From an uncultured Spirochaetales bacterium (lineage in GTDB: Bacteria > Spirochaetota > Spirochaetia > Sphaerochaetales > Sphaerochaetaceae): DNA of 51,115 nucleotides. Numbering within the stretch: position 1 is the stretch's first letter; each line of letters starts with the position of its first letter. The stretch covers positions 1 to 51,115 of the forward strand of contig CACZJR010000007.1 of the NCBI GenBank assembly GCA_902781545.1. Direction: 5' to 3'. The translations under genes were made by a program, and so were the position numbers. Positions 23,094 to 41,931 of the stretch are shown here, piece by piece. Under the pieces are notes generated by a model that made no database searches, had not been told where the DNA came from, and worked only from the letters and a program-made list of their open reading frames with translations.

Positions 23094-23819
23094 ATGTCGA
23101 AATACACGACGGGAGAACTTGCAAAACTCTGCAATATCACAGTCCGTACAGTCCAGTACTATGACAGCCGGGGCATCCTTGTTCCCAGCGAGCTATCCGA
23201 AGGGGGAAGGAGACTCTATTCAGAAGACGACCTGAACCGGATGAAGGTGATCTGCTTTCTGCGGGAACTGGATCTTCCGATCAATGCCATCTCCCAGATC
23301 CTTCAGGAAGAGCATCCAGAGAAGGTCATATCTCTTCTGATTGAGAATCAGGAGAAAGAGCTTTCGGATGAGGTCTCTGAGAAGCAGGGAAAACTGGATA
23401 GGCTCCGTGAGCTGAAAAAGGGACTGAAGGGTAAAGAGTCATTCTCCCTCGAATCCATCGGTGACATGGCAGTTATTATGGACAGCAAGAAAAAACTTAG
23501 GAAAATGCACTGGACAATGGTCCTGACAGGGCTTCCGGTTACCGCGCTTCAATGGTTCTCAATCATTTTCTGGATTGTCAGAGGTATCTGGTGGCCATTC
23601 GTCATCTGGGTCATTGTGGCTGCCTCATGGGGCATTCTGATCAGCAGGTATTATTTCAGACATGTCAAGTACATATGTCCGGAATGCCATGAGATATTCA
23701 AGCCAAAGCTGAAGGAAGCTTTTTTTGCAAATCATACTCCTACAGCACGTAAGCTGACCTGCACGGGATGCGGTCACAAAGGTTTCTGTGTGGAGATCTG
23801 GGGAGGCGATGAGAGATGA
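23094..23819 (+). CDS. MerR-family regulator with membrane segment and C-terminal zinc ribbon
   Basis: 241 residues. Residues 1-70 are a MerR HTH (YTTGELAKLCNITVRTVQYYDSRGILVPSELSEGGRRLYSEDDL). A coiled coil spans about 80-120. Two hydrophobic helices cover about 140-185. The C-terminus carries CPEC...CTGCG, a probable zinc site. A membrane-anchored MerR is unusual and suggests sensing at the membrane. It overlaps the YhfC gene by 4 nt (ATGA), so YhfC is probably its partner or target. Confidence 0.87.
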   Translation: MSKYTTGELAKLCNITVRTVQYYDSRGILVPSELSEGGRRLYSEDDLNRMKVICFLRELDLPINAISQILQEEHPEKVISLLIENQEKELSDEVSEKQGKLDRLRELKKGLKGKESFSLESIGDMAVIMDSKKKLRKMHWTMVLTGLPVTALQWFSIIFWIVRGIWWPFVIWVIVAASWGILISRYYFRHVKYICPECHEIFKPKLKEAFFANHTPTARKLTCTGCGHKGFCVEIWGGDER

Positions 23820-24649
23820 AGGTCTTTGAGAATATAGTCGTCGGGAAAAGCAGCATCCCGTCACTGGTCATCACAGTCATCCTGATGGTCGCTATTCCTG
23901 TCGCCTCATTCATCTTCTGGCGTATAAGGCACAGGAAAGAGACGAATCTCGGCTATCTGATTGCCGGAATCATCGGTTTCCTGGTCTCCGCCCGGGTATT
24001 GGAGCTTGGCGTGCATTACCTGTGCATCATCTCCGATAATCCTGTCTCCAGGTTCATCAACGGAAACACAATAGCCTATGTGCTTTACGGGATAACCATG
24101 GCAGGTGTCTTCGAGGAGTGCGGAAGGTTCATCATCCTCAGATTTATCCTCAAAAGAAACCGCACACGGGAGAATGCTGTCATGTATGGAATTGGCCATG
24201 GCGGAATTGAGATCCTTGCCGTGATCCTGCCTTCCATTATCCTGTATCTGGTCATAGCGGTGTTCTTCTCTGCAGGAGACGTGGGAAAGGCAATGAGTGC
24301 CCTGAAAATCACGGAGGAGACTGCAGCCACGGCTCTTCCGTCTGTCATGGCCGCCGCTGCATTCGATTTTCCGCTGATGGCAATGAACGTCCTTGAACGC
24401 ATCCTTGCCATGGTCGCCCATATCGGATTCTCGGTCATTGTGTTCTACGGTGTCTGCAATGCAAAAAAAGCCTTTCTGCCGTTGGCTATCCTTTTGCATA
24501 TGCTGATGGATACCTTCCCGGCGCTGTATCAGAGAGGCGTTGTCCCGCTCTGGTCCGTGGAGGTCTGGGGAGCTTTCTGTGTTGCCTTGATAGCGTTGAT
24601 AGCAATCAGGCTTTACAGGTTGAGACCTGCGACCCCAGGAAGTCGATGA
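23816..24649 (+). CDS. YhfC-family predicted intramembrane protease
   Basis: 277 residues, about eight hydrophobic helices. Motifs of the YhfC/CPBP/PrsW clan are visible: FEECGRF (about residue 100, paired glutamates), YGIGHGGIE (about 124) and LLHMLMD (about 221), which together supply likely metal ligands. The family is predicted, not proven, to cleave membrane proteins. The overlapping membrane-bound MerR upstream is an obvious candidate substrate or regulator. Confidence 0.82.
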   Translation: MKVFENIVVGKSSIPSLVITVILMVAIPVASFIFWRIRHRKETNLGYLIAGIIGFLVSARVLELGVHYLCIISDNPVSRFINGNTIAYVLYGITMAGVFEECGRFIILRFILKRNRTRENAVMYGIGHGGIEILAVILPSIILYLVIAVFFSAGDVGKAMSALKITEETAATALPSVMAAAAFDFPLMAMNVLERILAMVAHIGFSVIVFYGVCNAKKAFLPLAILLHMLMDTFPALYQRGVVPLWSVEVWGAFCVALIALIAIRLYRLRPATPGSR

Positions 24650-26942: not shown

Positions 26943-27040
26943 GGTAATGACAGCTGGACTTTTAGCCGCTCAAACTTGCCGGAGTCTTGTGTGGCTTTTT
27001 CCCCATGCAAGGCTGTTCCTTCTTACTGAGGTTTTTGACA

Positions 27041-27967
27041 TTATAGTTTGGAGAGAAGGGCAGACAGCATCTTTTCATCATCATTCATACTGATTTCGAA
27101 TGTTTTCTTCCCGGCATCCTTTATTGATGCTCCAATGTGATAAAGTTCCTTTTTGTCTAGTATCAGGAATCTGTCATGGAAATCGTCAGTATATATGATT
27201 TCAAGTTCTCCGTATTGACTTCGGAATGCACTGATTTCCTTTCCGGTGAGTTTGCAACTCTTCTGGTTTGTGTAGATTGAGATTGTGGCTCCTGTTTTCT
27301 TTCTGGAAAGCATGTCCAGTGTGCCCTTGTCCACATAGCTGTCAATCAGGATAATTGATTTCTCTGCCTTCCCGATTATCTCCTCAATACAACTGGTTGC
27401 ATCCCACATCTGGCCTCGGAAGAAGATTACTGCCTTGTCCGGTTTTGGGGATTGAAGAATGTCATACAGCATATTTATCCGATGGTCAGAGTCTATCTGT
27501 TTTATCTCAATCCAATCCAGTCTTTGAAACACAATTGCATTATCAGCCAAGAATTGTCTCATTGCCCGAAATGCTCTCATGATGAGAATACTTTGCTTTT
27601 CTGCTATTTCTCCGTGCAGAACCGAGGCAAGCATGTAAATGCCTTGCTCGGTGAATGCCAAAGGTGGTTTTCGCCTGCCACCTTCTTGTCCCGCAAAGAA
27701 ATTTGATGGCCGTGATGTCACAATTTGTGATTTCACGAGGCTTACTTCTTCATTAGTGAGTTCGAACATAAAATCAGAGGGGAATCTTGATATATTTCTT
27801 CTGACCTGTTGATTGAAGGATCTGACATCATAACCATAGAATTCAGCCAAATCTGAATCCAGCATGACCCGTACTCCACGTATGGTATAGATCCTGTTAA
27901 AGACCTCAGCAGTGGTGATCGTCAGAGGAATCGAAGGTTGATTATTTGTATCAAACACCTGGGACAT
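27041..27967 (-). CDS. ORF6N-domain protein with PLD-like C-terminal domain
   Basis: 308 residues. The N-terminal ORF6N (KilA-N-related) DNA-binding domain spans about 20-105: YTIRGVRVMLDSDLAEFYGYDVRSFNQQVRRNISRFPSDFMFELT. The C-terminal part (about 200-305) contains IILIDSYVDKGTLDML and FHDRFLILDKKELYHIGASIKD, a PLD-like phosphodiesterase fold with HxR in place of HxK. ORF6N proteins occur in phages and islands. It marks the left side of the accessory region. Confidence 0.87.
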   Translation of the reverse strand: MSQVFDTNNQPSIPLTITTAEVFNRIYTIRGVRVMLDSDLAEFYGYDVRSFNQQVRRNISRFPSDFMFELTNEEVSLVKSQIVTSRPSNFFAGQEGGRRKPPLAFTEQGIYMLASVLHGEIAEKQSILIMRAFRAMRQFLADNAIVFQRLDWIEIKQIDSDHRINMLYDILQSPKPDKAVIFFRGQMWDATSCIEEIIGKAEKSIILIDSYVDKGTLDMLSRKKTGATISIYTNQKSCKLTGKEISAFRSQYGELEIIYTDDFHDRFLILDKKELYHIGASIKDAGKKTFEISMNDDEKMLSALLSKL

Positions 27968-27989
27968 GTTATCTGATATGCTTTACATC

Positions 27990-28412
27990 TTATTTGAAAG
28001 CATCGCAATGGCCATTGATTTCAGGATAATTCCTGTCATATTCTTGCCTTCGTAGGTGAATCAGCCTGTATTCCCATTTGATAGATTCCTCAACTCTGCT
28101 GTTATGAGTTTCTATATAGTTAGTAAATTTGCATTCCTGAACTATTTCTGGATCTCCAATGACACGGTACCCTAACGGCGTGAAAAGATCTTTCACGAGT
28201 AAATTATACCAGGCATAGACTTCACCGTATTTTGCCGAATATGATGAGAGCTCATTTGACTCATTGAAATACCAGGTGCAGGGACAATACAACCCGGGAT
28301 TCTCTTCATAAGGATAGTGAGACCTGCAGAATGAATCAAATCTGAGAATAAAGGAATCATCCACTTCAGGACTAAGCTTTACCGGATTCCTGTTCATCAA
28401 CCAAGTACCCAT
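27990..28412 (-). CDS. Hypothetical protein
   Basis: 140 residues starting MGTWLMNRNPVKL, with AATGGAGG upstream deciding the start at 28412. I recognise no family. It contains CPCTWYFNESNELSSYSAKYGEVYAWYNLLV and a C-terminal segment rich in R and H. It ends 22 nt before the ORF6N gene start on the same strand, so both are probably co-transcribed. Confidence 0.65.
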   Translation of the reverse strand: MGTWLMNRNPVKLSPEVDDSFILRFDSFCRSHYPYEENPGLYCPCTWYFNESNELSSYSAKYGEVYAWYNLLVKDLFTPLGYRVIGDPEIVQECKFTNYIETHNSRVEESIKWEYRLIHLRRQEYDRNYPEINGHCDAFK

Positions 28413-28585
28413 AATCGAACCTCCATTTCTCATTTTGCATAATGTATTTAACAAAGATAAACTATTTGATTGAATCATAAACTAATATTATATATTTTTC
28501 AAGAGCAAAGTTTACCAATAGTTGTAATAATATATTGATATTTAAATAATGGTATACTACAATTGATTTCCTGAGGATGGAGAAA

Positions 28586-28924
28586 ATGACAGCAGAACAG
28601 CAGATAGCAAGTGTGCTGAACGTGTTCTTGAAAGAGAATCGCTATATGACGCAAGCTGAATTGGCACGAAGGATGGATGTCACACCTGCTGCAGTGACAA
28701 AATGGTTGAAAGATGGAGCTGTGTCCATAAACAAGATTCCTCTTCTTTGTGAGACTCTTGGAATCACTCCCAACACCTTGTTCGGGTTTCCTGATTCCAA
28801 GATATCTTCTCAAGCCTTGGATCTTTACAATGCTTTCCTTAAACATCCGGAATACCAGGATTCTGTGATGAAATTGTTGAGTGTTGTGTATAGTGACATT
28901 GAGGAAAATGGACAATGCGACTAA
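28586..28924 (+). CDS. Xre-family helix-turn-helix regulator
   Basis: 112 residues. The HTH is FLKENRYMTQAELARRMDVTPAAVTKWLKDGAVSINKIPLLCETLGI (about residues 15-62), followed by a helical tail. The second ATG (28586) has a better-spaced GGAG than the first at 28577. It is divergent from the 140-residue hypothetical gene across an AT-rich 173-bp region, which probably holds its operator. Confidence 0.85.
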   Translation: MTAEQQIASVLNVFLKENRYMTQAELARRMDVTPAAVTKWLKDGAVSINKIPLLCETLGITPNTLFGFPDSKISSQALDLYNAFLKHPEYQDSVMKLLSVVYSDIEENGQCD

Positions 28925-29096
28925 GAGTACTTTTCGTGTGCCACGGCAGGGGATTTAGAATCTAAAATAACTTACTTTAGCTAAATAAATTATATTTTGA
29001 ATAATTCTTCTGCCACACACGAGCTACACATTTATTTGCCTTGACTAATCAATTGAACTGTATTACATTTGAAATACATATTGAGGAGATGTAATT

Positions 29097-29396
29097 ATGG
29101 CAATTGTTCAGTTGAGGATAGATGACGAATTGAAACTTCAGGCTGTTTCCGTATATGAGAAACTGGGCATTGACTTGTCCAGTGCAATAAGGATGTTCCT
29201 GAAGCGTTCAGTTATGGTCAACGGAATTCCATTCAGCATGATCTTGGACGAGAAAGCATATGATCCTGAAGCTGCAGCCAAGGCCATGAAGAATATGAAT
29301 GACTCTGCAAAGAAAAGCGGTGCATCGAATATGACATTGGAAGAGATAAACGCAGAAATCTCAGCCTACAGGAAAGAGAAAAGACGAGGCAAATAA
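29097..29396 (+). CDS. RelB/DinJ-family antitoxin without visible toxin
   Basis: 99 residues: a ribbon-helix-helix start (MAIVQLRIDDELKLQAVSVYEKLGIDLSSAIRMFLKRSV) and an extended C-terminal toxin-binding tail (MTLEEINAEISAYRKEKRRGK). GAGGAG precedes the ATG. A palindromic GTATT...AATAC at about 29059-29076 could be its operator. The next 160 nt contain no toxin gene, so it is an orphan. It may act in trans on another toxin or serve only as a repressor. Confidence 0.85.
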   Translation: MAIVQLRIDDELKLQAVSVYEKLGIDLSSAIRMFLKRSVMVNGIPFSMILDEKAYDPEAAAKAMKNMNDSAKKSGASNMTLEEINAEISAYRKEKRRGK

Positions 29397-29519
29397 ACGT
29401 TTCAGAGAAATCAAAGAAGCCTATGACTATTTGAAAATTAATTATTAGTCTTATTTGAATATGCGTTCTTTGGTCATACATTCTAGAAAAGAAACACTTA
29501 AACAAAAAAAAGAGGCAAA

Positions 29520-29542
29520 AGTGTTCCATTAATCCGAACGTT
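29520..29542 (+). promoter_or_regulatory. 23-bp regulon element, site 1 (upstream of pseudo-DnaE operon)
   Basis: Arms AGTGTTC and GAACGTT separated by exactly 9 nt. Six nucleotides later comes TAAGTAT, the weakest -10-like match of the five sites. See the findings for the shared architecture. Confidence 0.7.
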
Positions 29543-29550
29543 GACATGTA

Positions 29551-29599
29551 AGTATTCCTCTTGTTAAGGCAGAACTGGAGGCTGGAAATGAGGAATACT
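29551..29599 (+). promoter_or_regulatory. Inverted repeat enclosing the pseudo-DnaE start codon
   Basis: AGTATTCCTC (29551-29560) and GAGGAATACT (29590-29599) are perfect 10-bp complements. The RNA hairpin would hold the ribosome-binding site GGAG in its loop and place the ATG (29588) at the base of the 3' arm, suggesting translational control. Confidence 0.55.
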
Positions 29600-31285
29600 G
29601 ACTACCCTCAAAGTGAGCTCATAAAGAGTGAAGTGGATGAGATGGAAGACTTCAGTTACCATTTTGAATCTGCGGATTCGACAGATCCTATTTGCGGCAG
29701 AAACATAAGCGATAATGAATTGTCTGTCATACTTGAGATACTAAAGAATGAGACCCGTTTCTCAATTGAGTATGAAGATTCTAATGATGAGGAATTGCTT
29801 GCCATAGACATCCCGTTGTCCAGGGAGGCATTGATATCTGCCGAGATAGAACAGGAGTTGTTCTATGCGTGGCATTCTCCAGATAGGGTTTTTTGGAACG
29901 ATACAGATAGCATCTGGCCAAGAGGGTTAACAACATACCGATATTCGGTTGATGACCCGAAGATGCCCAAACCTCCACAGTCAAGAAAAAGGGTTCTGGG
30001 GTTTTATAAAGAACAGTTTCTTTGCCTCTTCTTTGAAGAGTATAAAGGGAAAGACTCTGAAAGAAATAACAAATTGCTAAAGAGAAAATTCATGAAAATT
30101 CTATCAGAAAAGGGTGAAACCAAAAATCTTAAAGAGGTTGAGAAGAGGCTTGATTTTGAACTGCGCTTAATTAGAAAAGTGGGGTTGGAACAATATGTAC
30201 TTGCCTTTGATGCGGTTTTGTCTCTGGCAAAGAGAAAGCATACTCCCATGTTCGTTGATTCATTGGACGGAGAAGGTTCTCTTGTTCTTTATTGTCTGGG
30301 AATAATACGTAGAAATCCCCTGCAGTATGGTCTCGGATTCGCCTCATTCCTCAGTATGGAAAGGGTAAGAATACCATGGTTCGGTATCATTTGTCGTAAA
30401 GAAGATACCCGGTCCATCTATAGTGAGATGGTGAAACAATTCGGAGAAGACAAAGTCGGATTGATTCCTAATGGTGTAGGTCTTCTCCTAAACAAGACGG
30501 GTCTTGGAGAACCTGTTCCGTCTGTGATTGATGATTATACCTTGGAACGGAATTTCCTCGTCCAGCCTGAGGAATTTGAAAAGAATGGAATCGTTCCGGT
30601 TTATTTGGATCTTGATAAGACTCTTGATGATTTGGTTTGCATCAAGGAACTGATAAGGCAGAGCACACCGAGTTTCAGTCTCGATTCAATTCCAGATGAA
30701 GATTCTGAGACATTCGAAATGCTATCAAAAGGGGAGTCCGAAGGAATTCCGCTTCTCAATGACAATTGGATTCGGAAGTGTCTAAGAATCTTAGGACCAA
30801 GTAATATCGATGAACTCGATGCCCTGATATCTCTCTATCACAATGGCCCGACTGATCTGATACCGATGTACATGGATGCCAAGAGGGGAATGCTGCCGCA
30901 AAACTATCAGGATCTACAGGAAATTGATCCGCTTAAAAGAACTCATGGGGTCATCGTATACAAGGAGCAGATTGTAGATGTGCTCATTCAGATTGCCAGA
31001 TTCTCAGAGGCTGATGCACTTTGTTTCTGCCGTGCTTTATCTAGGGGCGATAGAGATGTAATCGATCGGTATGAAGAGAAGTTCAAAAACAACATGACCA
31101 GTTTCCACTGGGATAGTCAGTATGCGGAAAAGCTTATCGATATGATTAGAAGGTTCTCCTCTGAATCCTACAAGAGAAAGGTCGGGTTCTGGCATGCGGT
31201 TCTTTCATACAGGCTTGCATTCATCAAATGCCATTTTCCGGATGAGTTTGATAATGTGATGATTCTCAAAACGAAGGAGGATTAA
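29588..31285 (+). CDS. Catalytically degenerate DNA polymerase III alpha (DnaE) homologue
   Basis: 565 residues. About residues 195-565 align by eye with DnaE palm and fingers: LDFELRLIRKVGLEQYVLAFDAVLSLAKR, GEGSLVLYCLGIIRRNPLQYGLGFASFLSMERVRIP, then LSKGESEGIPLL, DELDALISLYHNGPTDLI, THGVIVYKEQIVDVLIQIARFSEADAL and SYRLAFIKCHFPDEF. The catalytic PDIDIDF is PWFGIIC (263-269), the third aspartate region reads VYLDLDKT, GRGS is lost and NKSH is lost. PHP, beta-binding, OB and tau domains are absent. The N-terminal ~190 residues are unrecognised. So it is probably a non-polymerising paralogue. It is coupled to the AAA+ gene (3-nt gap). Confidence 0.82.
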   Translation: MRNTDYPQSELIKSEVDEMEDFSYHFESADSTDPICGRNISDNELSVILEILKNETRFSIEYEDSNDEELLAIDIPLSREALISAEIEQELFYAWHSPDRVFWNDTDSIWPRGLTTYRYSVDDPKMPKPPQSRKRVLGFYKEQFLCLFFEEYKGKDSERNNKLLKRKFMKILSEKGETKNLKEVEKRLDFELRLIRKVGLEQYVLAFDAVLSLAKRKHTPMFVDSLDGEGSLVLYCLGIIRRNPLQYGLGFASFLSMERVRIPWFGIICRKEDTRSIYSEMVKQFGEDKVGLIPNGVGLLLNKTGLGEPVPSVIDDYTLERNFLVQPEEFEKNGIVPVYLDLDKTLDDLVCIKELIRQSTPSFSLDSIPDEDSETFEMLSKGESEGIPLLNDNWIRKCLRILGPSNIDELDALISLYHNGPTDLIPMYMDAKRGMLPQNYQDLQEIDPLKRTHGVIVYKEQIVDVLIQIARFSEADALCFCRALSRGDRDVIDRYEEKFKNNMTSFHWDSQYAEKLIDMIRRFSSESYKRKVGFWHAVLSYRLAFIKCHFPDEFDNVMILKTKED

Positions 31286-31288
31286 GGA

Positions 31289-32143
31289 ATGGATAGTATT
31301 GCTGTTGAAAGCGCACAAATCCAGGAATCTGATTTTTTGGTTGCAGTTCGGGAACTTAATTCTCTCATCGGACTGAAGACGGTGAAAACGGAGATTGAAA
31401 GAATCATAAATCTGGCAAAAGTCGATGCAATCAGACGCAGACGCGGCCTTCAGACTGCAGATATGAGTTTTCATATGGTGTTCAGCGGCAATCCTGGAAC
31501 CGGAAAAACCACAGTTGCAAGACTTCTGGGAAGATTATTCAAAGGCCTTGGACTGCTCTCCAAAGGGCATCTCGTCGAGGTTGATCGATCTTGCCTTTGC
31601 GCGGACTATGTCGGCCAAACAGCAACAAAGACAAAGAAGGTGATTCAGTCTGCGCTCGGCGGTGTGCTGTTTATTGACGAAGCATATTCCCTGAATACAA
31701 AAAATGGCTCAGGCTCTCAGGACTACGGCAAGGAGGCAGTGAGTACGCTGCTGAAGGAGATGGAAGATCACCGTGATGATTTGATAGTCATTGTTGCCGG
31801 CTATACGGACCTCATGGATGATTTCATCTCAATGAATCCGGGGCTGGAGTCAAGATTCAGATTCAAGATATGGTTTGAAGATTATACTTCAGAAGAAATG
31901 GCAATGATCTTCTGGTCTTTCTGCAAACGCAACGGTTTCGGAATCACAAAGGAAGCATATGCGAGGATTCAGAGATTGTTTGTTTCCCACACCTCAGGAA
32001 AGGAACAGCCGTTTTCCAATGCCAGATTGGCAAGAAATCTATTTGAAGATGCTGTAATAAATCAGGCACAGCGGCTATCCAAGGTTGATAATCCGAAAGA
32101 TCAGGAACTCTGCATTCTTTTGCAGGAAGACATAAGTGCGTAA
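31289..32143 (+). CDS. CbxX/CfxQ-like AAA+ ATPase
   Basis: 284 residues. It begins with a short helical part (LIGLKTVKTEIERIINLAKVDAIRRRRGL), then Walker A GNPGTGKTT (about 67-75), VGQTATKTKKVIQSA (pore-loop region), Walker B GGVLFIDEAYSL (about 125), a sensor-1-like IVIVAGY and an arginine-finger segment LESRFRF. This is the SpoVK/CbxX class of chaperone-like remodelling ATPases. AAGGAGG precedes the ATG. Adjacent coupling suggests it remodels the DnaE-like protein or a complex containing it. Confidence 0.92.
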   Translation: MDSIAVESAQIQESDFLVAVRELNSLIGLKTVKTEIERIINLAKVDAIRRRRGLQTADMSFHMVFSGNPGTGKTTVARLLGRLFKGLGLLSKGHLVEVDRSCLCADYVGQTATKTKKVIQSALGGVLFIDEAYSLNTKNGSGSQDYGKEAVSTLLKEMEDHRDDLIVIVAGYTDLMDDFISMNPGLESRFRFKIWFEDYTSEEMAMIFWSFCKRNGFGITKEAYARIQRLFVSHTSGKEQPFSNARLARNLFEDAVINQAQRLSKVDNPKDQELCILLQEDISA

Positions 32144-32158
32144 AAAAAAATCATCAGA

Positions 32159-32181
32159 AGCGTGCCATAAAAGCGAACGCA
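32159..32181 (+). promoter_or_regulatory. 23-bp regulon element, site 2 (upstream of UDG-like operon)
   Basis: Arms AGCGTGC and GAACGCA with a 9-nt spacer; six nucleotides later CTATCCTG. It lies 36 nt before the ATG at 32218, with GGAGG in between. Confidence 0.7.
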
Positions 32182-32217
32182 GTACCTCTATCCTGTGTCT
32201 GTCACGGAGGATGGCAT

Positions 32218-33048
32218 ATGACAGACATTGAATCAGAGAAGAAACAGCAGCTTCTGAATTGGTACAAAGACCTCAAAACACTTGTCTCGACAAAAAAGAG
32301 GATATTGCTTCCGGATGATGGAGTTGAATACAAGGCCGGTGATTTGCTGAATCTTGACGGCTTCTATCCCGGCTATTTCAGTTCAAACCCCAAGGTTCTT
32401 TTCTTTGACAAGGAGTCCAGGGATGTTGCTGGGCAAGACAGGATGGAAACAGACCTTGAATATCTCAAATCCAATGACATTAACGGGATGTGGTATCCCA
32501 AATGGCAGAAGATCTTCTACATCATTTACGGTATAGGAAAGAAAGGTACAATGCCTTTCAAGGATATTCCGGTAGCAGACGAAATCAAGAACAAGTGTTT
32601 CAAAGAGAACTGCTTTCCGTTCGCATTCATCAATATCAGCAAGTACTCGAATGACAGCATAAGGCTAAAATCGGATGCAATTCTGATAAACAGATTTCTG
32701 GAAGATGCGGAACTCGACAAGAGGAACATCCTAATGGAGCAAATCTCCATTCTAGATCCGGATGTGATAATCACCTACAACTTCTGGGATGATTCTGGCA
32801 TTGAGTCCGATAAGAGAGCTCTGATTCTTCCGAAAAACTGCTTCAGCAAAAGAATCAAGGAACTGTCATCTGATGGAATCTCAGATGTTTATGACTTCAA
32901 ATACAATGGCAAATCCATACGTTTCATTGCTCTCAAACGGCTGACAACGCTCCGCTTCGGCGATGATATGGGATGTGAGCTGGATCAGAAGTATTTTTAT
33001 GATCCAGTGATGAAAGCACTTTTCAGCGAGGCCAAGATTAATGCCTGA
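32218..33048 (+). CDS. Uracil-DNA-glycosylase-fold-like protein
   Basis: 276 residues. The pattern PKVLFFDKES (about 59-68), WQKIFYIIYGIG, FAFINISKYSN (about 139-149) and EQISILDPDVIITYNFW (about 177-193) follows the layout of UDG-superfamily relatives (nucleotide-pocket loop, central NxxK-like strand, PDVIIxxG-like strand). Classical UDG catalytic motifs are not complete, so glycosylase activity is uncertain. It overlaps the DEDD exonuclease gene by 8 nt and carries site 2 of the shared promoter element upstream. Confidence 0.6.
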   Translation: MTDIESEKKQQLLNWYKDLKTLVSTKKRILLPDDGVEYKAGDLLNLDGFYPGYFSSNPKVLFFDKESRDVAGQDRMETDLEYLKSNDINGMWYPKWQKIFYIIYGIGKKGTMPFKDIPVADEIKNKCFKENCFPFAFINISKYSNDSIRLKSDAILINRFLEDAELDKRNILMEQISILDPDVIITYNFWDDSGIESDKRALILPKNCFSKRIKELSSDGISDVYDFKYNGKSIRFIALKRLTTLRFGDDMGCELDQKYFYDPVMKALFSEAKINA

Positions 33049-33754
33049 CATTATTAACACTGAAAACATAAGGAGCTTCCTGGCTGAGCTTTCATATCCA
33101 TTGTTTTTTCTGGATTTCGAGACCATTTATCCTGCTGAACCACTATTTGACGGTGTGCGGCCTTATCAGCAAATACCATTCATGTATTCACTGCATTGGA
33201 TAGAGAAGGAGGGCGGGGATCTGCACCATACTGTATTCTTCTCCTATCCTGGACGTGATCCGAGGAGATTCATAGCGGAAGAACTGTGCACTGATATCCC
33301 AAAAGGGGTCTGCACCGTTGCCTACAACATGTGTTTTGAGAAGGCAAGGGTTAGGGAGCTTTCGGAATTGTATCCAGACCTTGCAGATCATCTGATGGAT
33401 ATCCATGACAACATGAAGGATCTCATGGTGCCGTTCCGAAGGAAATGGTATTACACCGATGCCATGGAGGGATCATATTCCCTGAAAGCCGTTCTACCGG
33501 CGCTTTATCCCGATGACCCTGAACTTGATTACTCTCTGCTTGATGGAATCCACAACGGCTACGAGGCTTCTGAAACCTATCTTGCCATGTGGCAGAACCC
33601 TGATGACAGGACCCCGGAGAGATGTCGGCAGCTTAGTGAATACTGTGGGCTGGACACATATGCGCTGGTCAAGCTGTGGGAGAAGTTGAGAAATGTTTCT
33701 TCGACTAACGAAATCGATGATAGAATGAACACGGAGGAGAAAAATGAGGTATAG
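33041..33754 (+). CDS. Stand-alone DUF2779 DEDD-type exonuclease
   Basis: 237 residues corresponding to only the DUF2779 domain: FFLDFETIYPAEPLFDGVRPYQQIPFMYSLH (DxE, about residues 24-26), VAYNMCFEKARVRELSELYP, GSYSLKAVLPALYPDDPELDY, and SEYCGLDTYALVKLW (YCxxD, DEDDy-like). The pattern is that of an RNase-H-fold 3'-5' exonuclease, with the expected acidic residues present. In other genomes the domain usually sits at the C-terminus of a larger nuclease. Its start overlaps the preceding stop and its end overlaps the next start. Confidence 0.87.
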   Translation: MPDIINTENIRSFLAELSYPLFFLDFETIYPAEPLFDGVRPYQQIPFMYSLHWIEKEGGDLHHTVFFSYPGRDPRRFIAEELCTDIPKGVCTVAYNMCFEKARVRELSELYPDLADHLMDIHDNMKDLMVPFRRKWYYTDAMEGSYSLKAVLPALYPDDPELDYSLLDGIHNGYEASETYLAMWQNPDDRTPERCRQLSEYCGLDTYALVKLWEKLRNVSSTNEIDDRMNTEEKNEV

Positions 33755-34616
33755 AATTCACAATATGATTTGTAGGATATGCGGTTCTAATGATATCATC
33801 CTTGATTTAGCTACTTATAATTGTATGAATTGTGGAAATAGATGGTTTGTAGACGGATATGAACCAACAGAACTTGAGTATCTTGAGATGGAAAACGAGA
33901 TACGAATGAACAGTGAAAAAAGAAGATTTGAACATCGAGTCAGGCGTCAGGATGTGATGATGGCGTTCAGCCCATCTGAAAGGTTTTCAAAGAATCTTGA
34001 AAGTGATTTGGGAACAGGGGTCCCTTTGGGAAGATATAGATATGAATTGGGTTCCCTTCTTTTGGAAGGAGCAAGTTTTCATGAGGTTAAGGACGTCTCG
34101 ATTCCAGCAGGATGCTCAAAAGCTGATTTTGACGCCTATATCAGAGATTATCTAAGCAGCAGAGACGAGCTACCGTTTTCTCCAAGTCTTGATGATTGGT
34201 GTAAATATCTTCATGCATCGGAAAAAGAATTGAACGGAATCTATGAATCAGAACCTCATGTAAATATCTCTTATTTCCTGAATCCGGATATGATTATCCA
34301 TGATGTGTTTTCCATTGTATTCTCCGGGAGAATCAAAGCAGCAGTAGACCAACTGGACGAAGGCCATTTAGATATGCTATATGAGAATACTGCTCCTGAA
34401 TTCTGTTTTGAAGACTATTATGACGGTAATTCATATGCTGAATTCTTTGTTAATCAATTCCTCAACGAAGAAAAAAACGTGATTGATCGTTTCTTTGTTG
34501 CAGGAAAAGAAAAAGGGCAAGAATTCTATAACAAGGCAATTGAGGAGCATCTGTCTATTATCGATACCATGATGCTGTTTGTGGATTATGCATTTGAGGG
34601 GTATAATGGATACTAA
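33744..34616 (+). CDS. Zinc-ribbon protein of unknown function
   Basis: 290 residues. Residues 9-31 hold CRIC...CMNC, a small zinc ribbon. The rest is unrecognised and acidic, with FNAYIRDYLSSRDELPF-like helical segments. GGAGGAG sits before the ATG at 33744, and the gene overlaps the exonuclease by 11 nt, so it is in the same operon. Its base composition is visibly more AT-rich than the two genes before it, suggesting a separate origin. Confidence 0.7.
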   Translation: MRYRIHNMICRICGSNDIILDLATYNCMNCGNRWFVDGYEPTELEYLEMENEIRMNSEKRRFEHRVRRQDVMMAFSPSERFSKNLESDLGTGVPLGRYRYELGSLLLEGASFHEVKDVSIPAGCSKADFDAYIRDYLSSRDELPFSPSLDDWCKYLHASEKELNGIYESEPHVNISYFLNPDMIIHDVFSIVFSGRIKAAVDQLDEGHLDMLYENTAPEFCFEDYYDGNSYAEFFVNQFLNEEKNVIDRFFVAGKEKGQEFYNKAIEEHLSIIDTMMLFVDYAFEGYNGY

Positions 34617-34629
34617 GTAAATCTAGGGA

Positions 34630-34951
34630 ATGCTTTCTTCTGGTTGCTATAGCCTTTTTGACGGAACACATTCTCTTATCAGGGTTAAAGGATTTGATAC
34701 AGTAAATCCGATTATTTTTAATTTTGCATACTCCTGTGATCTAAATAATCCTCAATTCTATTCCCCCTGATCAAACACAAAGAGTACATGATTCTATTAA
34801 GCATGGGATAATGGAAAGAGTAAGACTCATTTCCCCTTGTTGTTTATTACAGTTTCATATTCCGTTTCTTAATAGCGAAAGCATTGCTGAGCAATCTGGT
34901 TATTTTTTTGTTAGAACAAATTATATTTATTATGATAAATACCTGTTTTAG
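34630..34951 (+). pseudogene. Frameshifted small gene
   Basis: The ATG at 34630 opens a frame (MLSSGCYSLFDGTHSLIRV...) that hits a stop right after the run CCCCC at 34763-34767. Removing one C restores a frame of about 106 codons to the TAG at 34949-34951 (...SPDQTQRVHDSIKHGIMERV...). So this is a single-base frameshift in a homopolymer, either a real inactivation, a phase-variable tract or a read error. No family is recognised. It follows the zinc-ribbon gene by 13 nt and is equally AT-rich. The remaining bases 34952-34996 show nothing clear. Confidence 0.55.
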
Positions 34952-34996
34952 AATCTCGGAATAAGCATTTATTGATAATTGACTAGTGTTATTATT

Positions 34997-36127
34997 CTAG
35001 TGTTTTGCCTCTATTGCATCTTTGAAGGATATAACTGTTTCGCGAAGTAGTTGTTTTATTCCATCTTGGTCAAAGATTTTATCTGAGGAGAAAGTGTAGA
35101 ATGATCCTTCTTGTGCAGGTTTCTGGAAAAACCACTTGTTCCCTATAAGCTGCCTAATGTGGTCGCATGCTTCATTTACATTAACATCAGTATTTCTGAT
35201 ATGGAGTACAAGTTCTATTGAGTCTGACGAGAACCAAATATCAACCACATAGTTAATATCACCAAGTATTATGCTATCAATAAAAACACAGGTTCGTGTG
35301 TATCGTCCAACTTTCCATGTTTTTGGCATAATACCATCAGATCGTAATCCTTGAAGATATTCATAGTAGTAATCTCGCATAGTGTTTGGTAAGTCATTAA
35401 ATAATTGAACGAGTCTTTTCATCTTGTCTGAATTATTGTCTTGATTTAATAACGTCATGTATTCTTCAAAGTCGCTATTGCTCATTATATTTTCCCCATT
35501 AATAATATTTTTAAATAGTGTTTTTAATTCCATAGAAAAAGCTGTGAGTCTGATGTCATTAGACTCCTTAATGACTTCATTTATTATTTTATCTGTGAAA
35601 CTGTTTGGCCCTGTTAAGGTCGTAACCAACAGTAAAGCCTTTATTTCATCTATATCCTCATTCTTCCAGCCGGTATAAGAAGGTTCTTTGAGGGTTTTCT
35701 TGTTTAAATAGACAACTGCATCAACGGAAACATTGTTTTTTATGAGATCCATGTAGTATCTATAAACCTGTTGGTCCATATCTTCTGCATCATTTGATTT
35801 GTTCTCAATGAAAATTGCACGTTTATGATCTTGGGAGTAAATAGTAATGTCTCTTCTTCCTTCTTCCCTAATAGGAGTACTGTATTCATATTCAGAATAT
35901 ACAATCTCTTCTGTTTCGTTCTTCGCTTTCAGCTGTTCATTTAACCATGAGATTAAGCATTTCTTGGGGAGATCATAGGATAAGTAATATGCAATGACAT
36001 CACTGTGAAAGTTTTCTCTATAATACAAATCAGATATGGAATTAAAGATACATTTTTCTGGTTTGTTTTTTCCATAAGAGATTAGTTTATTACTAAGGCA
36101 GTTAAACAGATTGATTAAGTCTTTCAT
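34997..36127 (-). CDS. PD-(D/E)XK nuclease superfamily protein
   Basis: 376 residues from the ATG at 36127, which GGAAG precedes; an in-frame ATG at 36154 lacks an SD. The N-terminal half has ENFHSDVIAYYLS, RRDITIYSQDHKRAIFIENKSNDAEDMDQQVYRYYMDLI, matching the PDDEXK_4 pattern of D...ExK plus QxxxY. The C-terminal half is unrecognised. Such proteins are often solitary defence nucleases. Visibly AT-rich, convergent with the frameshifted gene. Confidence 0.82.
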   Translation of the reverse strand: MKDLINLFNCLSNKLISYGKNKPEKCIFNSISDLYYRENFHSDVIAYYLSYDLPKKCLISWLNEQLKAKNETEEIVYSEYEYSTPIREEGRRDITIYSQDHKRAIFIENKSNDAEDMDQQVYRYYMDLIKNNVSVDAVVYLNKKTLKEPSYTGWKNEDIDEIKALLLVTTLTGPNSFTDKIINEVIKESNDIRLTAFSMELKTLFKNIINGENIMSNSDFEEYMTLLNQDNNSDKMKRLVQLFNDLPNTMRDYYYEYLQGLRSDGIMPKTWKVGRYTRTCVFIDSIILGDINYVVDIWFSSDSIELVLHIRNTDVNVNEACDHIRQLIGNKWFFQKPAQEGSFYTFSSDKIFDQDGIKQLLRETVISFKDAIEAKH

Positions 36128-36180
36128 AATGGGTGCTTCCACATGTTTAATCATATTATGATTTGAAGGAAATGATACTA

Positions 36181-37209
36181 TTAGTTTTCATTTTTGCCCT
36201 TATATTGGCAATTAATCTTTATGAGTTCTCTTTTTATTTCATCAACAAGAACTATCGGCTCAAGGCATTTGGCCTGACATCCCAAGCTTAGAATCCACTT
36301 CTTGCAGGCGTAGCGGTTACGGGTCTGTACGGTCATGATAATGGAGCCATCCTCATTCTCTGTGATATGGGCATTCTTGGAACGAGCAGACTCTTTCTCA
36401 AAGATTGCCTGATCCGGGTCAATCCATACCTTGACCGTTATGGGCTCGTCATCAGTGACTATACCGAAGGGATCGATAATCTGGGAGAGGTCTTTGAATT
36501 CGTCCGGTGTGACTGCATCTTCAAAGATTTCTATGTTCCTGATTCGTGAGAAGGCATGGACCATTGTGTGATTGAAGTAGGGATTATAGGAGAGGAGGTA
36601 GAGGATATCATTTTGGGAGAAAATGCCTATTGGATTGATTGTGTATTTCTTGGGCTCTTCTGACCACGGGGCTTTGTATGTTATCCACACGGATTTGCTC
36701 TGATCTATGGCTTTTAGAATATCGGGAACGAATTGCTGCCCTTCGCCACCAAGCTGCATGTCCGGGCTGTAGCTGACCATCGGAATTATTCCCTTAGATG
36801 CAAAACGGCTTAGAGAAAGGTGCTCCTTTAGTCTGTTTATCATGTCACCGTAAAGACCTGTAGATTCAGCCATATCCATGAGGATGGTCAGGATTGTACG
36901 ATCTTCGTTGGTGAGTGAGCTTATTTGGTACAACTCCTTTTCCGCACGTTTAAGACTGTCGCTAGTGAGTCTGTATTTCAATGGACTGTTGTCGGCATTG
37001 CGTTCTTCTTCGTTGCTTTCAAGGCATGGAAGATAATATGTCAATGATTTATATAGTCGGCAGGCCTGTGTCTTTCCGATATCCAATGCTTTCTGCATCT
37101 GATTTCTGCTTATCCAGACATCCGGATGGTATATGAAGTAGCTTACTGCCTGTTGTAGAAGCTTCTCTGAAACGCCTTCCTTCGAATCATCTCTTTTCTT
37201 TTCGCTCAT
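36181..37209 (-). CDS. WYL-domain transcriptional regulator
   Basis: 342 residues. The start at 37209 has AAGGGAG upstream. The N-terminus is a winged-HTH region (SRNQMQKALDIGKTQACRLYKSLTYYLP, about 35-62). The WYL domain spans about 160-240 (SKSVWITYKAPWSEEPKKYTINPIGIFSQNDILYLLSYNP), followed by a WCX region (ITVKVWIDPDQAIFEKE...). WYL regulators sense nucleic-acid-like ligands and control phage-defence and DNA-damage genes. Site 5 of the shared 23-bp element lies in its own promoter, so it is the prime candidate for the regulon's controller. Confidence 0.88.
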   Translation of the reverse strand: MSEKKRDDSKEGVSEKLLQQAVSYFIYHPDVWISRNQMQKALDIGKTQACRLYKSLTYYLPCLESNEEERNADNSPLKYRLTSDSLKRAEKELYQISSLTNEDRTILTILMDMAESTGLYGDMINRLKEHLSLSRFASKGIIPMVSYSPDMQLGGEGQQFVPDILKAIDQSKSVWITYKAPWSEEPKKYTINPIGIFSQNDILYLLSYNPYFNHTMVHAFSRIRNIEIFEDAVTPDEFKDLSQIIDPFGIVTDDEPITVKVWIDPDQAIFEKESARSKNAHITENEDGSIIMTVQTRNRYACKKWILSLGCQAKCLEPIVLVDEIKRELIKINCQYKGKNEN

Positions 37210-37257
37210 TGTCTTGTCTCCCTTGACTATATTCAGTTTACCATAAGATACAGGACA

Positions 37258-37280
37258 AGCGTTCGGAAATATGGTGCGCT
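37258..37280 (-). promoter_or_regulatory. 23-bp regulon element, site 5 (WYL regulator promoter)
   Basis: Read on the minus strand: arms AGCGCAC and GAACGCT with a 9-nt spacer, six nucleotides (TGTCCT), then GTATCTTA. It lies 49 nt before the WYL start codon, pointing to autoregulation. Confidence 0.68.
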
Positions 37281-37283
37281 TTT

Positions 37284-37625
37284 TCAATTATTGTCGGATT
37301 CGTTCCCTTGAATGATGCCTTCAATGTTTCTGCCGCCGTAGAATATGCGGATAATCGAAACAACAGAAGAATCGGAATCAACCGTATAAAATACAACGTA
37401 CTTGCCGACAGGGACTTTATGCATTCTCATGGATGCCCAGGGTTCCCATTCAACAATGGGATATCTTTCAGGCATCTCCTCGAGAGAACGTATTTCATTT
37501 CTGATTCTGGTTGTGACGTTCTGTGCCGCCTGCGGGGCTTTCAGCTCAAAAAGGATGTATGAGGCGATGCTTCTGAGATCGTTTTTTGCTTCCGGGGAGT
37601 AGATTACATTGAAGCGTGAGATCAC
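37284..37625 (-). CDS. RelE/ParE-family toxin
   Basis: 113 residues: FNVIYSPEAKNDLRSIASYILFELKAPQAA (ParE-like helical hairpin) and the core MRMHKVPVGKYVVFYTVDSDSSVVSIIRIFYGGRN. It starts with GTG overlapping the antitoxin stop by 4 nt. It may cleave mRNA at the ribosome or inhibit gyrase; the two subfamilies are not separable here. Confidence 0.9.
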   Translation of the reverse strand: MISRFNVIYSPEAKNDLRSIASYILFELKAPQAAQNVTTRIRNEIRSLEEMPERYPIVEWEPWASMRMHKVPVGKYVVFYTVDSDSSVVSIIRIFYGGRNIEGIIQGNESDNN

Positions 37626-37924
37626 AAGCCGAATTCCTCCGCCATGATGGAATCAACTTCATCTGCTGAGAAACTACCCGTCTTCAGAGATGCAACTCCT
37701 TTCGTAAGTTCTGCATCAAGCTGCTCTTTTGTCATTCCTCCGATGGCCACAGGCTTTGACGCAGGAACCTTCAGGTCAAAAGGCATGCCGTTCTGCAGGA
37801 CAATCTGGCTATAGAGCATCTGTATTGCACTGGATGGACTTATCCCAAGAAGAAGCAGGATTTTTTCTGCGTTATCCTTCAATTCTGTATCGATGCGGGC
37901 GTAAAGTACTGATGTGTTTGCCAT
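37622..37924 (-). CDS. RelB/DinJ-family antitoxin
   Basis: 100 residues: N-terminal ribbon-helix-helix (SVLYARIDTELKDNAEKILLLLGISPSSAIQMLYSQIVLQNGMPFDL) and a C-terminal toxin-binding tail. AAGGAAGG precedes the ATG. It is the first gene of the pair and should repress its own promoter. Confidence 0.92.
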   Translation of the reverse strand: MANTSVLYARIDTELKDNAEKILLLLGISPSSAIQMLYSQIVLQNGMPFDLKVPASKPVAIGGMTKEQLDAELTKGVASLKTGSFSADEVDSIMAEEFGL

Positions 37925-37946
37925 TCTGATTCCTTCCTTTCTTTCA

Positions 37947-37995
37947 ATGATACAGTCATATTATTGAAATTGCAAGCATTTGCATGCAATTGCAA
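37947..37995 (-). promoter_or_regulatory. RelBE promoter with phased TTGCAW repeats
   Basis: On the minus strand TTGCAA (37970-37975), 17 bp, TATCAT (37947-37952). The -35 hexamer is one of three TTGCAW units repeated every 10 bp (37970, 37980, 37990), the middle one forming the palindrome TTGCATGCAA. One unit per helical turn is a plausible RelB operator. Confidence 0.6.
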
Positions 37996-38019
37996 ATTGT
38001 CAGTTTTGTTTTTTAGGAG

Positions 38020-38550
38020 TCAGACAATCGGATCCCCGCAGAATTCTTTTCTTCGGCAGTTCTTGCAGAAAGATCCCATCCAGACAGTATCGAACTGATC
38101 GATTGCTGCATTCACAAGTTCTTTGTCTGTTGTCAGTATACCAGCCTCGAAGTTGCGGGTGTTTTCTCCCTTCATGCCCAGACCGGCACCTGTGAGGTTT
38201 GCAGAACCTATATAGGCCGTCTTGAGATCGAAGATGATTATCTTGAAATGCACTCTGGGGCAGAGGACGCGCTCCATTCCTTTGATGAGGGCAGGGTATT
38301 TGTCAAAGTCCTCCCTGAACGCCGGTCCGGGTTCCTTTGCATGAATGAGCCTTATCTCAACTCCGTTCTTTACGAGGTCTGAAAGAACCTTCAATAGCGG
38401 TTTCATTCCTCGGATATCACGGACATAGAGGTTCTTGATATCTGCGGTTCCTATCCAGAGCACCCTCTTTACGTTCTTAATCCGCTCTATAACTTTTTCG
38501 TAGTGATCTTCGTTTGATATGAACTGTGTTGCAGGGGCAGGTCCGATCAT
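38020..38550 (-). CDS. Phospholipase-D-family nuclease
   Basis: 176 residues from the ATG at 38550. One HKD motif: HFKIIIFD followed by GSANLTGAGLGMKGENTRNFEAG (about residues 112-146). Upstream, KRVLWIGTADI and GVEIRLIHAKEPG are typical PLD strands. The C-terminus carries FCKNCRRKEFCGDP, a possible metal site. Single-HKD proteins dimerise to form one active site. Its own -10 (TAGAAT, near 38574) lies between it and site 3 of the shared element, so its membership in the regulon is uncertain. Confidence 0.85.
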   Translation of the reverse strand: MIGPAPATQFISNEDHYEKVIERIKNVKRVLWIGTADIKNLYVRDIRGMKPLLKVLSDLVKNGVEIRLIHAKEPGPAFREDFDKYPALIKGMERVLCPRVHFKIIIFDLKTAYIGSANLTGAGLGMKGENTRNFEAGILTTDKELVNAAIDQFDTVWMGSFCKNCRRKEFCGDPIV

Positions 38551-38618
38551 CCGTATTTCATCCTCTCTTTTCGATTCTATCAGCAAAAAAGTGCAGACAA
38601 AAATAAAAAAAACAGCAA

Positions 38619-38641
38619 AGCGTTCCTTATAAGTGAACGCT
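38619..38641 (+). promoter_or_regulatory. 23-bp regulon element, site 3
   Basis: Arms AGCGTTC and GAACGCT, fully complementary, with a 9-nt spacer; six nucleotides later ATAATCTG. It lies in the divergent region between the PLD gene and the gene at 38698. Confidence 0.75.
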
Positions 38642-38697
38642 GTGAGCATAATCTGCACGTGTTCGTAAGTCATTTCCTTTACACGGGAGGATGCGGT

Positions 38698-39333
38698 ATG
38701 GAGGAACTGCTGAGAGACATCATCATGAGAATACGGTCAAAGGTGTTCAGGGACTATTATCTTGAGCATCTCCCTGAATGGAATCTCTGGCAGATTACGG
38801 ATGTGATCCTGAGTCAGGTCAGTTCCCGGTATGCCGCATCCTCTTTCTTCAAGAGACTTGTCGGGTATCTCCCAAATCCGGACGAAAGGGCGGTGAGTCG
38901 TATGCTTTCAGAGGACCTTAGGAGATATGATGATATACGTCCAGGCACTGAAGCATTTGTTAAGAATACGTTTCCATGCCTCAAATGGAATCGCTATTTC
39001 TCCCGTTCATATTTAGGACAACCGAAGTTATTCACTGAGTTCGAGGTGGTGAAGTATTGGATTCCATGGAGATATGGAAATGGATATCAGATAGGTTTTC
39101 TCGCTAGCTCTGGATATGAATGGGATACCGAGTCTGAGACTCTTTATGAAATCTACAATCTTAGGAGGATGGATTTGCCGAGCGAGAATATAACTTGGGT
39201 GTACAAGGCTGATTTGGTCAAGCCTTTCTTTGTCGACAAATACAACATCAGGTGTCTCGATTCCAAATGCGCTCGAAACCTCAGGATAATCAGGGAGAGA
39301 ATAGCGGAAGCAGGGAAGTGGCCGATATATTGA
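38698..39333 (+). CDS. Hypothetical protein of the WYL-linked regulon
   Basis: 211 residues starting MEELLRDIIMRIRSKVF, with GGGAGG 7 nt upstream deciding the start. No family is recognised. It is rich in aromatic and arginine residues (WNRYFSRSYLGQPKLF, VKYWIPWRYGNGYQIGF), compatible with nucleic-acid contact, but nothing more can be claimed. The cysteine-rich gene follows 65 nt downstream without an obvious promoter of its own. Confidence 0.65.
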   Translation: MEELLRDIIMRIRSKVFRDYYLEHLPEWNLWQITDVILSQVSSRYAASSFFKRLVGYLPNPDERAVSRMLSEDLRRYDDIRPGTEAFVKNTFPCLKWNRYFSRSYLGQPKLFTEFEVVKYWIPWRYGNGYQIGFLASSGYEWDTESETLYEIYNLRRMDLPSENITWVYKADLVKPFFVDKYNIRCLDSKCARNLRIIRERIAEAGKWPIY

Positions 39334-39398
39334 ACTGTTCCCTTTGTGTTCCGAGAAAACGGGTGTAGAATCAGAACTACAAAAGGTGGAAACAAGCT

Positions 39399-39635
39399 AT
39401 GGCAAATTGCAAAGAGTGCAGGTTCTATGAGAAAAGCAAGTGTCTGGAGCGGAATTTCAGGACAGAGCCGTACAGTTCGACATGCTCATACTTCTCTGCT
39501 TACAGTACCAGAAACGATTCTGACTTCAGGCAATGCAAGGACTGCCGGTTCTATTCGGGCGGAAGGTGCAGCGAGCGTGATTGCAGTACATATCCGACAT
39601 CAAGCAAGTGTGGTTTCGGATCAATCTGCAGATAA
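39399..39635 (+). CDS. Cysteine-rich small protein, paralogue A
   Basis: 78 residues with two internal repeats of the pattern CKxCRFY...C..R (NCKECRFYEKSKCLERNF and QCKDCRFYSGGRCSERDC), each followed by a further cysteine and aromatic segment. The spacing suggests two zinc-binding knuckles. It is about half identical by eye to the protein at 39746 (same MAN start, same CKDCRFY core, same GSICR end). Function unknown. Confidence 0.75.
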   Translation: MANCKECRFYEKSKCLERNFRTEPYSSTCSYFSAYSTRNDSDFRQCKDCRFYSGGRCSERDCSTYPTSSKCGFGSICR

Positions 39636-39686
39636 ATCACATCAGAATTATCTCTCTCATTTTCAAAAAGACAGAAAAGGATCTTA

Positions 39687-39709
39687 AGTGTTCGCTGATT
39701 ACGAACGCT
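39687..39709 (+). promoter_or_regulatory. 23-bp regulon element, site 4
   Basis: Arms AGTGTTC and GAACGCT with a 9-nt spacer; six nucleotides later TTATCCTG. A hairpin CCTGAAG-ATA-CTTCAGG follows at 39720-39736, immediately before the ribosome-binding site of the gene at 39746. Confidence 0.75.
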
Positions 39710-39745
39710 CTCTCTTTATCCTGAAGATACTTCAGGAGGCTTTTT

Positions 39746-39988
39746 ATGGCAAACTATTGTAAGGGATGCAGATTCTTTAATGATGAAGGCAGATGTGAGG
39801 CAAGGAATTTCCAGCCAAGCGCGCAATCTACTGCATGCTACTCATATGCCGCATACAGTTCCAGGAATCCGGGTGACTTGAAATACTGCAAGGATTGCAG
39901 ATTCTATACTGGTTCAAGATGTAGTTTACGCAAGTTCTCCCCAACACCCGAAACAAGCAAATGCTATGACGGTTCAATATGCAGATAA
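39746..39988 (+). CDS. Cysteine-rich small protein, paralogue B
   Basis: 80 residues, paralogue of the protein at 39399, with two CKxCRFxx...C repeats (YCKGCRFFNDEGRCEARNF and YCKDCRFYTGSRCSLRKF). AGGAGG precedes the ATG. Its stop overlaps the FtsK-like gene start by 10 nt, tying the two together. Confidence 0.78.
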   Translation: MANYCKGCRFFNDEGRCEARNFQPSAQSTACYSYAAYSSRNPGDLKYCKDCRFYTGSRCSLRKFSPTPETSKCYDGSICR

Positions 39989-41049: not shown

Positions 41050-41172
41050 AGCAAAATACGTTTAGAATCTACAAGCCTGAAGCAATTTAAACCAATGATT
41101 TAAACCAATGGATTCTTTTTTATTTGGTTTTTCTTATGGAGTGACATACAATTTCGTTAAAGAAGGGATCAT

Positions 41173-41817: not shown

Positions 41818-41877
41818 CTCAAGTATTCAAGTGTCTTTTGCAAAAATGTACCGAATGATATGTAGTAATAGTCATGG

Positions 41878-41931
41878 AGTAGTCGGATGCCAGTAGTCTC
41901 TAAATCCCGGTTTGACTACTTTTCGACTACT
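41878..41931. repeat. Array of two AGTAGTC and two GACTACT units at the island edge
   Basis: AGTAGTC occurs at 41878-41884 and 41892-41898, and its complement GACTACT at 41914-41920 and 41925-41931. This paired, mirrored array lies in the gene-free stretch between the accessory island and the core gene at 42063. It could be a regulator-binding or recombination site. No cloverleaf tRNA can be folded here. Confidence 0.55.

Follow-up and report, generated by a model that had tools for sequence, protein, structure and literature searches.

Can the fold of a replicative DNA polymerase be kept in a genome once its catalytic site is gone, and with which partners? The question is raised by a dnaE-like gene in a stretch of 51,115 nucleotides (the window) from an uncultured Spirochaetales bacterium. 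The C family of DNA polymerases replicates all bacterial chromosomes, and a PHP domain and (HhH)2 are nearly universal in it. For the Y family (ImuB) and the X family, polymerase homologues without catalytic activity are well known. In the C family the active site has been called absolutely conserved, by a survey whose criteria for inclusion called for an intact site (PMC3919608).

The source genome (G000) is a 2.2-Mb draft (93% complete, 2% contamination), and its own replicative DnaE, with an intact active site, is encoded on a different contig. A sequence-only reading of the window had described the gene as a dead paralogue of polymerase III alpha (DnaE), selected rather than decaying, and coupled to a CbxX-like AAA+ ATPase. 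The observation itself, a dead and shortened DnaE paralogue, is confirmed by homology, alignment and domain search; the interpretation as a whole is partly supported.

Homology and active site of the DnaE-like protein

29588-31285, + strand: short dnaE, predicted to be dead, 565 aa (PF07733, PF17657, TIGR00594, PDB 2hpi, AlphaFold2 model and fold match)
29517-29581, + strand: leader directly upstream, 65 bp, 88% identical in G010 (blastn, alignment), including GGAGG at 29577-29581
29588-30061, + strand: N-terminal part, residues 1-158, no Pfam match, absent from G010
30374-30394, + strand: first catalytic strand, PDFDIDF changed to PWFGIIC, D401, D403 and D405 lost (alignment)
30599-30622, + strand: second catalytic strand, MDFLGLKT changed to VYLDLDKT, D555 changed to Y339 (alignment)
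30641-31267, + strand: fingers domain, residues 352-560 (PF17657; C-terminal ends compared)

The gene runs open for 565 codons and has a strong Shine-Dalgarno sequence, as had been read, the GGAGG lying six nucleotides ahead of the ATG. The hairpin reported at the start codon is what chance would give (z -0.03) and was rejected as an argument for selection. The relation to DnaE is far beyond chance in profile searches (Pfam fingers, 5e-28; Pfam palm, 3e-15; TIGR00594, 2.5e-55) and in a PDB search, which returned polymerase III alpha structures only (best 9e-37). Residues from about 155 to 560 correspond to the palm and fingers. An AlphaFold2 prediction that drew on 31 related sequences is confident over the same range and aligns with residues 309-820 of M. 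tuberculosis DnaE1 (Z 34, 409 residues, 3.1 A); because the alignment behind the model consisted of DnaEs, this match is a consistency check and not independent proof. Residues 1-158 have no recognisable DnaE relation, no other family in Pfam, no homologue in the genus and no confident fold (pLDDT mostly under 50, with low confidence over residues 1-154). Their codon-position GC resembles that of the remainder of the gene.

The palm and fingers are like those of the polymerase III alpha subunits of E. coli, T. aquaticus and M. tuberculosis (DnaE1), with E values to 1e-37, but much of the rest of those proteins is missing along with the catalytic aspartates. The PHP, beta-clamp and tau parts had been noted as absent, and indeed Pfam sees palm and fingers only: the PHP, HhH (with its clamp motif), OB and CTD domains are all lacking, and the protein ends at the fingers, 17 residues past the fingers-end lysine (14-25 in other short DnaEs). 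Roughly 70-80 palm/thumb residues between the two catalytic strands have also been deleted (PDB match, alignment).

The loss of all three catalytic aspartates is borne out by an alignment of the protein with 23 other DnaE-type proteins (24 in total). E. coli D401, D403 and D555 correspond to W264, G266 and Y339, the D405 position is I268, and KMDFLG aligns to VYLDLD. GRGS and NKSH are gone as well, GPGRGS aligning to FVDSLD and the NKSH loop being replaced. There are no displaced aspartates from which the site could be rebuilt. An acid nearby, D341, is on the strand of the lost D555 position, two residues away from it, and is also conserved in the homologue of a sister genome (G010); the first strand is free of acidic residues in both copies (W/G/I in G000, W/S/I in G010). 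Since the first strand retains no acid, a two-metal site should be unable to form, and the product is predicted, from its sequence, to be a dead polymerase homologue that cannot synthesise DNA. That it nevertheless polymerises DNA with a changed set of metal ligands, D341 among them, is barely credible: the closeness of this residue to the lost D555 position speaks for it, but the bare first strand of both copies and the loss of GRGS and NKSH speak against it.

Retention and erosion in related genomes

Within the genus, only 1 of 11 genomes, G010, has a close homologue as an intact gene (410 aa, 77% identity). This copy is also dead, with PWFSII and VTLDYE at the two strands. In G001 there is only a short frameshifted remnant. 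No homologue was found in 138 other genomes of the family, nor outside the genus among 393 spirochaete (phylum) genomes at a threshold set to exclude ordinary DnaE. The G010 copy is without the first ~155 codons and the start codon of the G000 form, yet the 65-bp leader is kept, so the 5' end was rearranged in one of the two copies; the simplest course would be a deletion in G010 in which the start codon beside the Shine-Dalgarno sequence was lost.

The two copies differ at 51, 40 and 109 sites in the first, second and third codon positions (Fisher p 5e-16), and dN/dS is about 0.3 (0.28-0.32) over 410 codons. There are no stops in 393 codons, whereas substitution alone at a dS of 0.5 would give a mean of 11. 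As the dead first strand is common to both copies, this constraint acted on an already dead protein: the gene has been kept after the death of its active site, since the split of G000 and G010. The earlier view that the gene is selected and not decaying thus finds support in dN/dS and the open frame. Most neighbour genes are more constrained (dN/dS 0.09-0.19), and synonymous divergence is uneven along the gene (pS 0.06 to 0.58), a pattern suggestive of recombination that makes the dN/dS estimate less certain. Residues 284-333 were rejected as a functional site, synonymous sites being equally conserved there (pS 0.06); the strong conservation reflects low local divergence, probably through recombination.

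Short DnaEs also occur elsewhere in the family. Two are intact, in G055 (804 aa) and in G085 (684 aa, its N-terminal side cut by a contig end), and two are dead, in G055 (764 aa, PYLEICC) and in G049 (753 aa). G131 has a fingers-only DnaE-like protein of 229 aa. A further dead DnaE in G052 (760+ aa; PGIDVAF, KMYFAG) extends beyond the contig, with its C-terminal end out of view. All seven DnaE-like proteins with a visible end, dead and live, stop 14-25 residues past the same lysine: 17 residues in G000, the dead G055 protein and G131, 14 in G010, about 16 in G049, and 25 in the live G055 and G085 proteins. The short-DnaE loci are AT-rich relative to their flanks, where flanks were read.

In the tree, the dead G055 and G049 proteins group at 100% and cluster with the live G055, G085 and G052 proteins; G052 is nested among the intact short DnaEs (99% support), and the G000/G010 pair forms a separate clade on a very long branch. 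The triad would therefore have been lost independently at least three times (G000/G010; G055 and G049; G052), in neighbouring genera as well as in this one, the long branches being a caution. A placement of the dead DnaE as sister of the DnaE at the equivalent position in the G008 island was marginally rejected (p-AU 0.03, a likelihood difference of only 1.6, and long branches). Phage and plasmid best matches to the dead DnaE are under 60% identical, with ordinary annotated DnaEs among them. In IMG/VR, a single-protein scan found no relative, and a profile scan turned up about 80 DnaE loci of viruses, with a lost triad in none of them; viral ORFs lacking the catalytic columns are apparently split or partial genes, and an intein-like insertion interrupts one odd match (L162).

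These family members bear on the main rival explanation, namely that the gene is a slowly decaying relic, a late stage in the repeated inactivation and erosion of island accessory DnaEs, with no present function. Sister genomes evidently do without the full gene, since G010 has lost the 5' part and G001 holds a frameshifted remnant only, and slow erosion accordingly has some probability. The fingers-only piece in G131, the very long branch, the repeated triad loss, the relaxed dN/dS and the loss of its motif by a neighbouring protein of uracil-DNA-glycosylase (UDG) fold all fit such a course. However, the open frames of strongly diverged genes without the triad (565, 753 and 764 codons), the missing stops, the third-position excess and the C-terminal boundary shared by live and dead copies do not. 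Decay without function is a possible account, though a doubtful one.

Several short-DnaE loci have further features. In G055 the dead and the apparently live gene lie about 4.5 kb apart on opposite strands (L067 7021-9315, L048 5798-8212); a WYL protein overlaps the stop of the dead gene, and a DnaB-like helicase and ankyrin proteins are nearby. Proteins of 257-259 aa adjoin short DnaEs (L048 4966-5745, L049 4370-5143) and by eye look like relatives of the DnaB C-terminal part without Walker A; one of the two was scanned and had no Pfam or PHROG match. The G131 fingers-only derivative (C48; L052 833-1522) is near a PD-(D/E)XK protein and a WYL regulator. Another accessory DnaE, in G001 (C23; L046 5201-8317), has 1038 aa and an intact triad and is near proteins that by appearance are caspase-like, toprim/primase-like and sigma-factor-like; this locus is possibly a prophage or integrative element.

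The island and the neighbouring genes

27000-41900, no strand: AT-rich genomic island, GC 0.35-0.45 against 0.49-0.56 around, borders approximate
31289-32143, + strand: CbbX/SpoVK/EccA-clade AAA+ ATPase (TIGR02881 3.5e-87, TIGR02880 1.6e-67, PDB CbbX 1.5e-56)
32218-33048, + strand: uracil-DNA-glycosylase-fold protein (AlphaFold2 pLDDT 88; Z 9.8 to family-4 UDG)
33041-33754, + strand: DUF2779, RNase H-like (DEDD-type) putative 3'-5' exonuclease (PF11074 1.7e-41; LDFET, YNMCFEK, YCGLDTY)
33744-34616, + strand: protein with a weak Zn-ribbon signal, last operon gene, 52% orthologue in G010
36181-37287, - strand: WYL/WCX-domain regulator, one of two WYL proteins found in the genome
39979-41049, + strand: short FtsK/SpoIIIE-like ATPase of the island backbone, the short form found in G000, G010 and G008 only in the genus

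The AT-rich island is acquired. It holds the five-gene operon headed by the dead dnaE, toxin-antitoxin (TA) pairs, the WYL regulator, a PLD protein and the short FtsK-like ATPase, and its backbone (DnaE-like, DUF2779, WYL, FtsK) is in the same order in G000, G008 and G010. PADLOC has no system model that matches the DnaE-like, UDG-fold, DUF2779 or Zn-ribbon protein, and the AAA+ protein of the operon is hit by weak generic AAA matches only. Other genes in the island are a lone RelB-type antitoxin (29097-29396), a ParE/RelB pair (37284-37924) and an ORF6N antirepressor-type protein (27041-27967). Outside it, at 23094-24649, a MerR-type regulator gene overlaps a gene for a YhfC-type intramembrane metalloprotease.

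The AAA+ gene begins 3 nt past the dnaE stop, with its own AAGGAGG inside the dnaE 3' end. Its product is a full member of the CbbX/SpoVK/EccA clade by score and by motifs: AAA core and lid, GNPGTGKT (Walker A), VLFIDE (Walker B), AGY (the GY signature of sensor 1), and ESRF (arginine finger). The coupling of the two genes that had been read from the sequence stands in so far as they share an operon in G000, but it is local to that genome, and the supposed DnaE-CbxX partnership does not hold in a survey of other genomes. In G010 the dead dnaE directly adjoins DUF2779, with no CbxX between and no close CbxX anywhere in the genome. The sole close CbxX in the family (75%) is in the equivalent island of G008, whose DnaE has its full length of 1173 aa and keeps PDFDID and KMDFLG; the order there is DnaE, AAA+, ClpP, CbxX, DUF2779. 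CbxX as an obligate partner of the dead DnaE is rejected by these two genomes. Clade members act as dedicated single-client chaperones (PMC10659427), and with the two genes adjacent in one operon the dead DnaE could be such a client, remodelled or loaded by CbxX; as each occurs without the other, this is very unlikely. No link of the clade to a replication protein was found in the literature searched.

The dead DnaE and CbxX being separable, the constant neighbour is DUF2779, which is present in all three islands. Its orthologues (82-86%) are found in G008 and G010 only within the genus, so that exactly the three genomes with the island have it, with a DnaE-type gene upstream in 3/3. The family has been assigned to the RNase H-like superfamily, in a group of presumed 3'-5' exonucleases (PMC3985635).

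The G008 island (C44; L045 2394-13203) has its genes in one direction: an MBL-fold protein, two IetA-like AAA+ proteins, the full-length second DnaE, ClpP, CbxX and DUF2779. The set is flanked by a pair of short FtsK-like genes, which are about 29 kb from each other, and looks like an undescribed protease/polymerase cassette; the island also carries GmrSD.

A WYL gene lies within 8 kb of a DnaE-like gene in six of nine genomes (G000, G010, G008, G055, G085 and G131); none is nearby in G049, G052 or G001. Genomes have 0-2 WYL genes across the nine and 1-2 in the six positives, and proximity has a p of about 1e-5 with related islands merged, for an association noticed post hoc. WYL factors (such as PafBC and a CBASS-linked regulator) are described as controlling DNA-damage and phage-defence genes, PafBC acting on binding ssDNA (PMC11804915, PMC9122588).

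Possible function and relation to known systems

The proposal we prefer, at about even probability, is that the former polymerase is retained for binding nucleic acid or protein, without catalysis, as part of an island-borne, WYL-associated cassette that includes a putative exonuclease. An accessory DnaE of the AT-rich variable islands in this spirochaete family would have been cut down to palm and fingers, with no clamp, tau, OB or PHP parts, and would have lost the metal-binding triad and so DNA synthesis, retaining the fold. It heads a cassette of five genes, the other four encoding a chaperone of CbbX type, a protein of UDG fold, a putative 3'-5' exonuclease and a zinc-ribbon protein. A WYL regulator is close by, and its class is known to sense ssDNA or nucleotides. 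Through its old polymerase surfaces it may bind a DNA end or primer-template, or a replisome or nuclease partner; the bound target could be handed to the neighbouring exonuclease or kept away from the host polymerase, and the cassette may be under DNA-damage or phage-stress control. We infer binding of DNA or protein, partnership with the exonuclease, most plausibly the DEDD-type enzyme of the same cassette, and induction by damage or infection. The putative roles named earlier, DNA-end binding or blocking of foreign replication, are possible.

Alternatively, the protein might be a dominant-negative or decoy that poisons or titrates phage or element replication at primer-template junctions or polymerase partners. 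The retained fold would suit such a role, as would an island with a WYL regulator, TA pairs and PLD, to which the G008 island adds GmrSD, ClpP and IetA-like AAA+ proteins. However, the protein is without the clamp- and tau-binding parts, GRGS and NKSH are replaced, and it matches no PADLOC defence model, which makes a decoy improbable.

Returning to the cassette proposal, one parallel is ImuB, likewise a catalytically dead polymerase homologue kept under selection, which serves as a scaffold. However, ImuB has a Y-family and not a C-family fold, and its partners, ImuA/RecA-type proteins and DnaE2, have no gene beside the dead dnaE. Noncanonical PolX proteins have also kept the fold and lost synthesis, but act as exonucleases (PMC9226535), whereas the dead DnaE is without the PHP nuclease domain. 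The DnaEX accessory polymerases (Timinskas, 2013; PMC3919608) are likewise extra, diverged DnaE copies, but were required to have the intact active site that is destroyed here. The sections seen of a 2026 survey of 3070 genomes name Y-family proteins that are inactive, as well as PHP or exonuclease domains without activity, and no inactive C-family group (PMC12926913). In the open-access literature we came upon no account of a dead DnaE that is maintained.

New here are short DnaEs with a common fingers boundary, at least three independent triad losses, and WYL proximity in six of nine genomes. Speculatively, short dead C-family polymerases could be a recurrent functional class (pseudo-polymerases) in WYL-associated spirochaete islands, stress- or phage-induced binding modules and a C-family counterpart of ImuB, missed because at least one survey admitted intact active sites only. 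A maintained triad-less DnaE that recurs independently in one bacterial family would mean that the replicative polymerase fold is reusable without catalysis, and the dead short DnaEs are defined proteins for asking what the C-family fold alone can bind.

A second parallel concerns the operon. In the Yersinia/Salmonella DnaE-UDG fusion, a UDG domain replaces the OB/CTD in an accessory polymerase (PMC3919608); here, the UDG fold is a separate protein of the same operon with a changed motif, its HFS, nearly invariant among relatives, being lost in the G000 copy. The family of this protein (32218-33048, L115-L127) has no Pfam model; its members are about 270 aa long, with a GRE...HFS motif pair, and occur in 15 of 393 spirochaete genomes.
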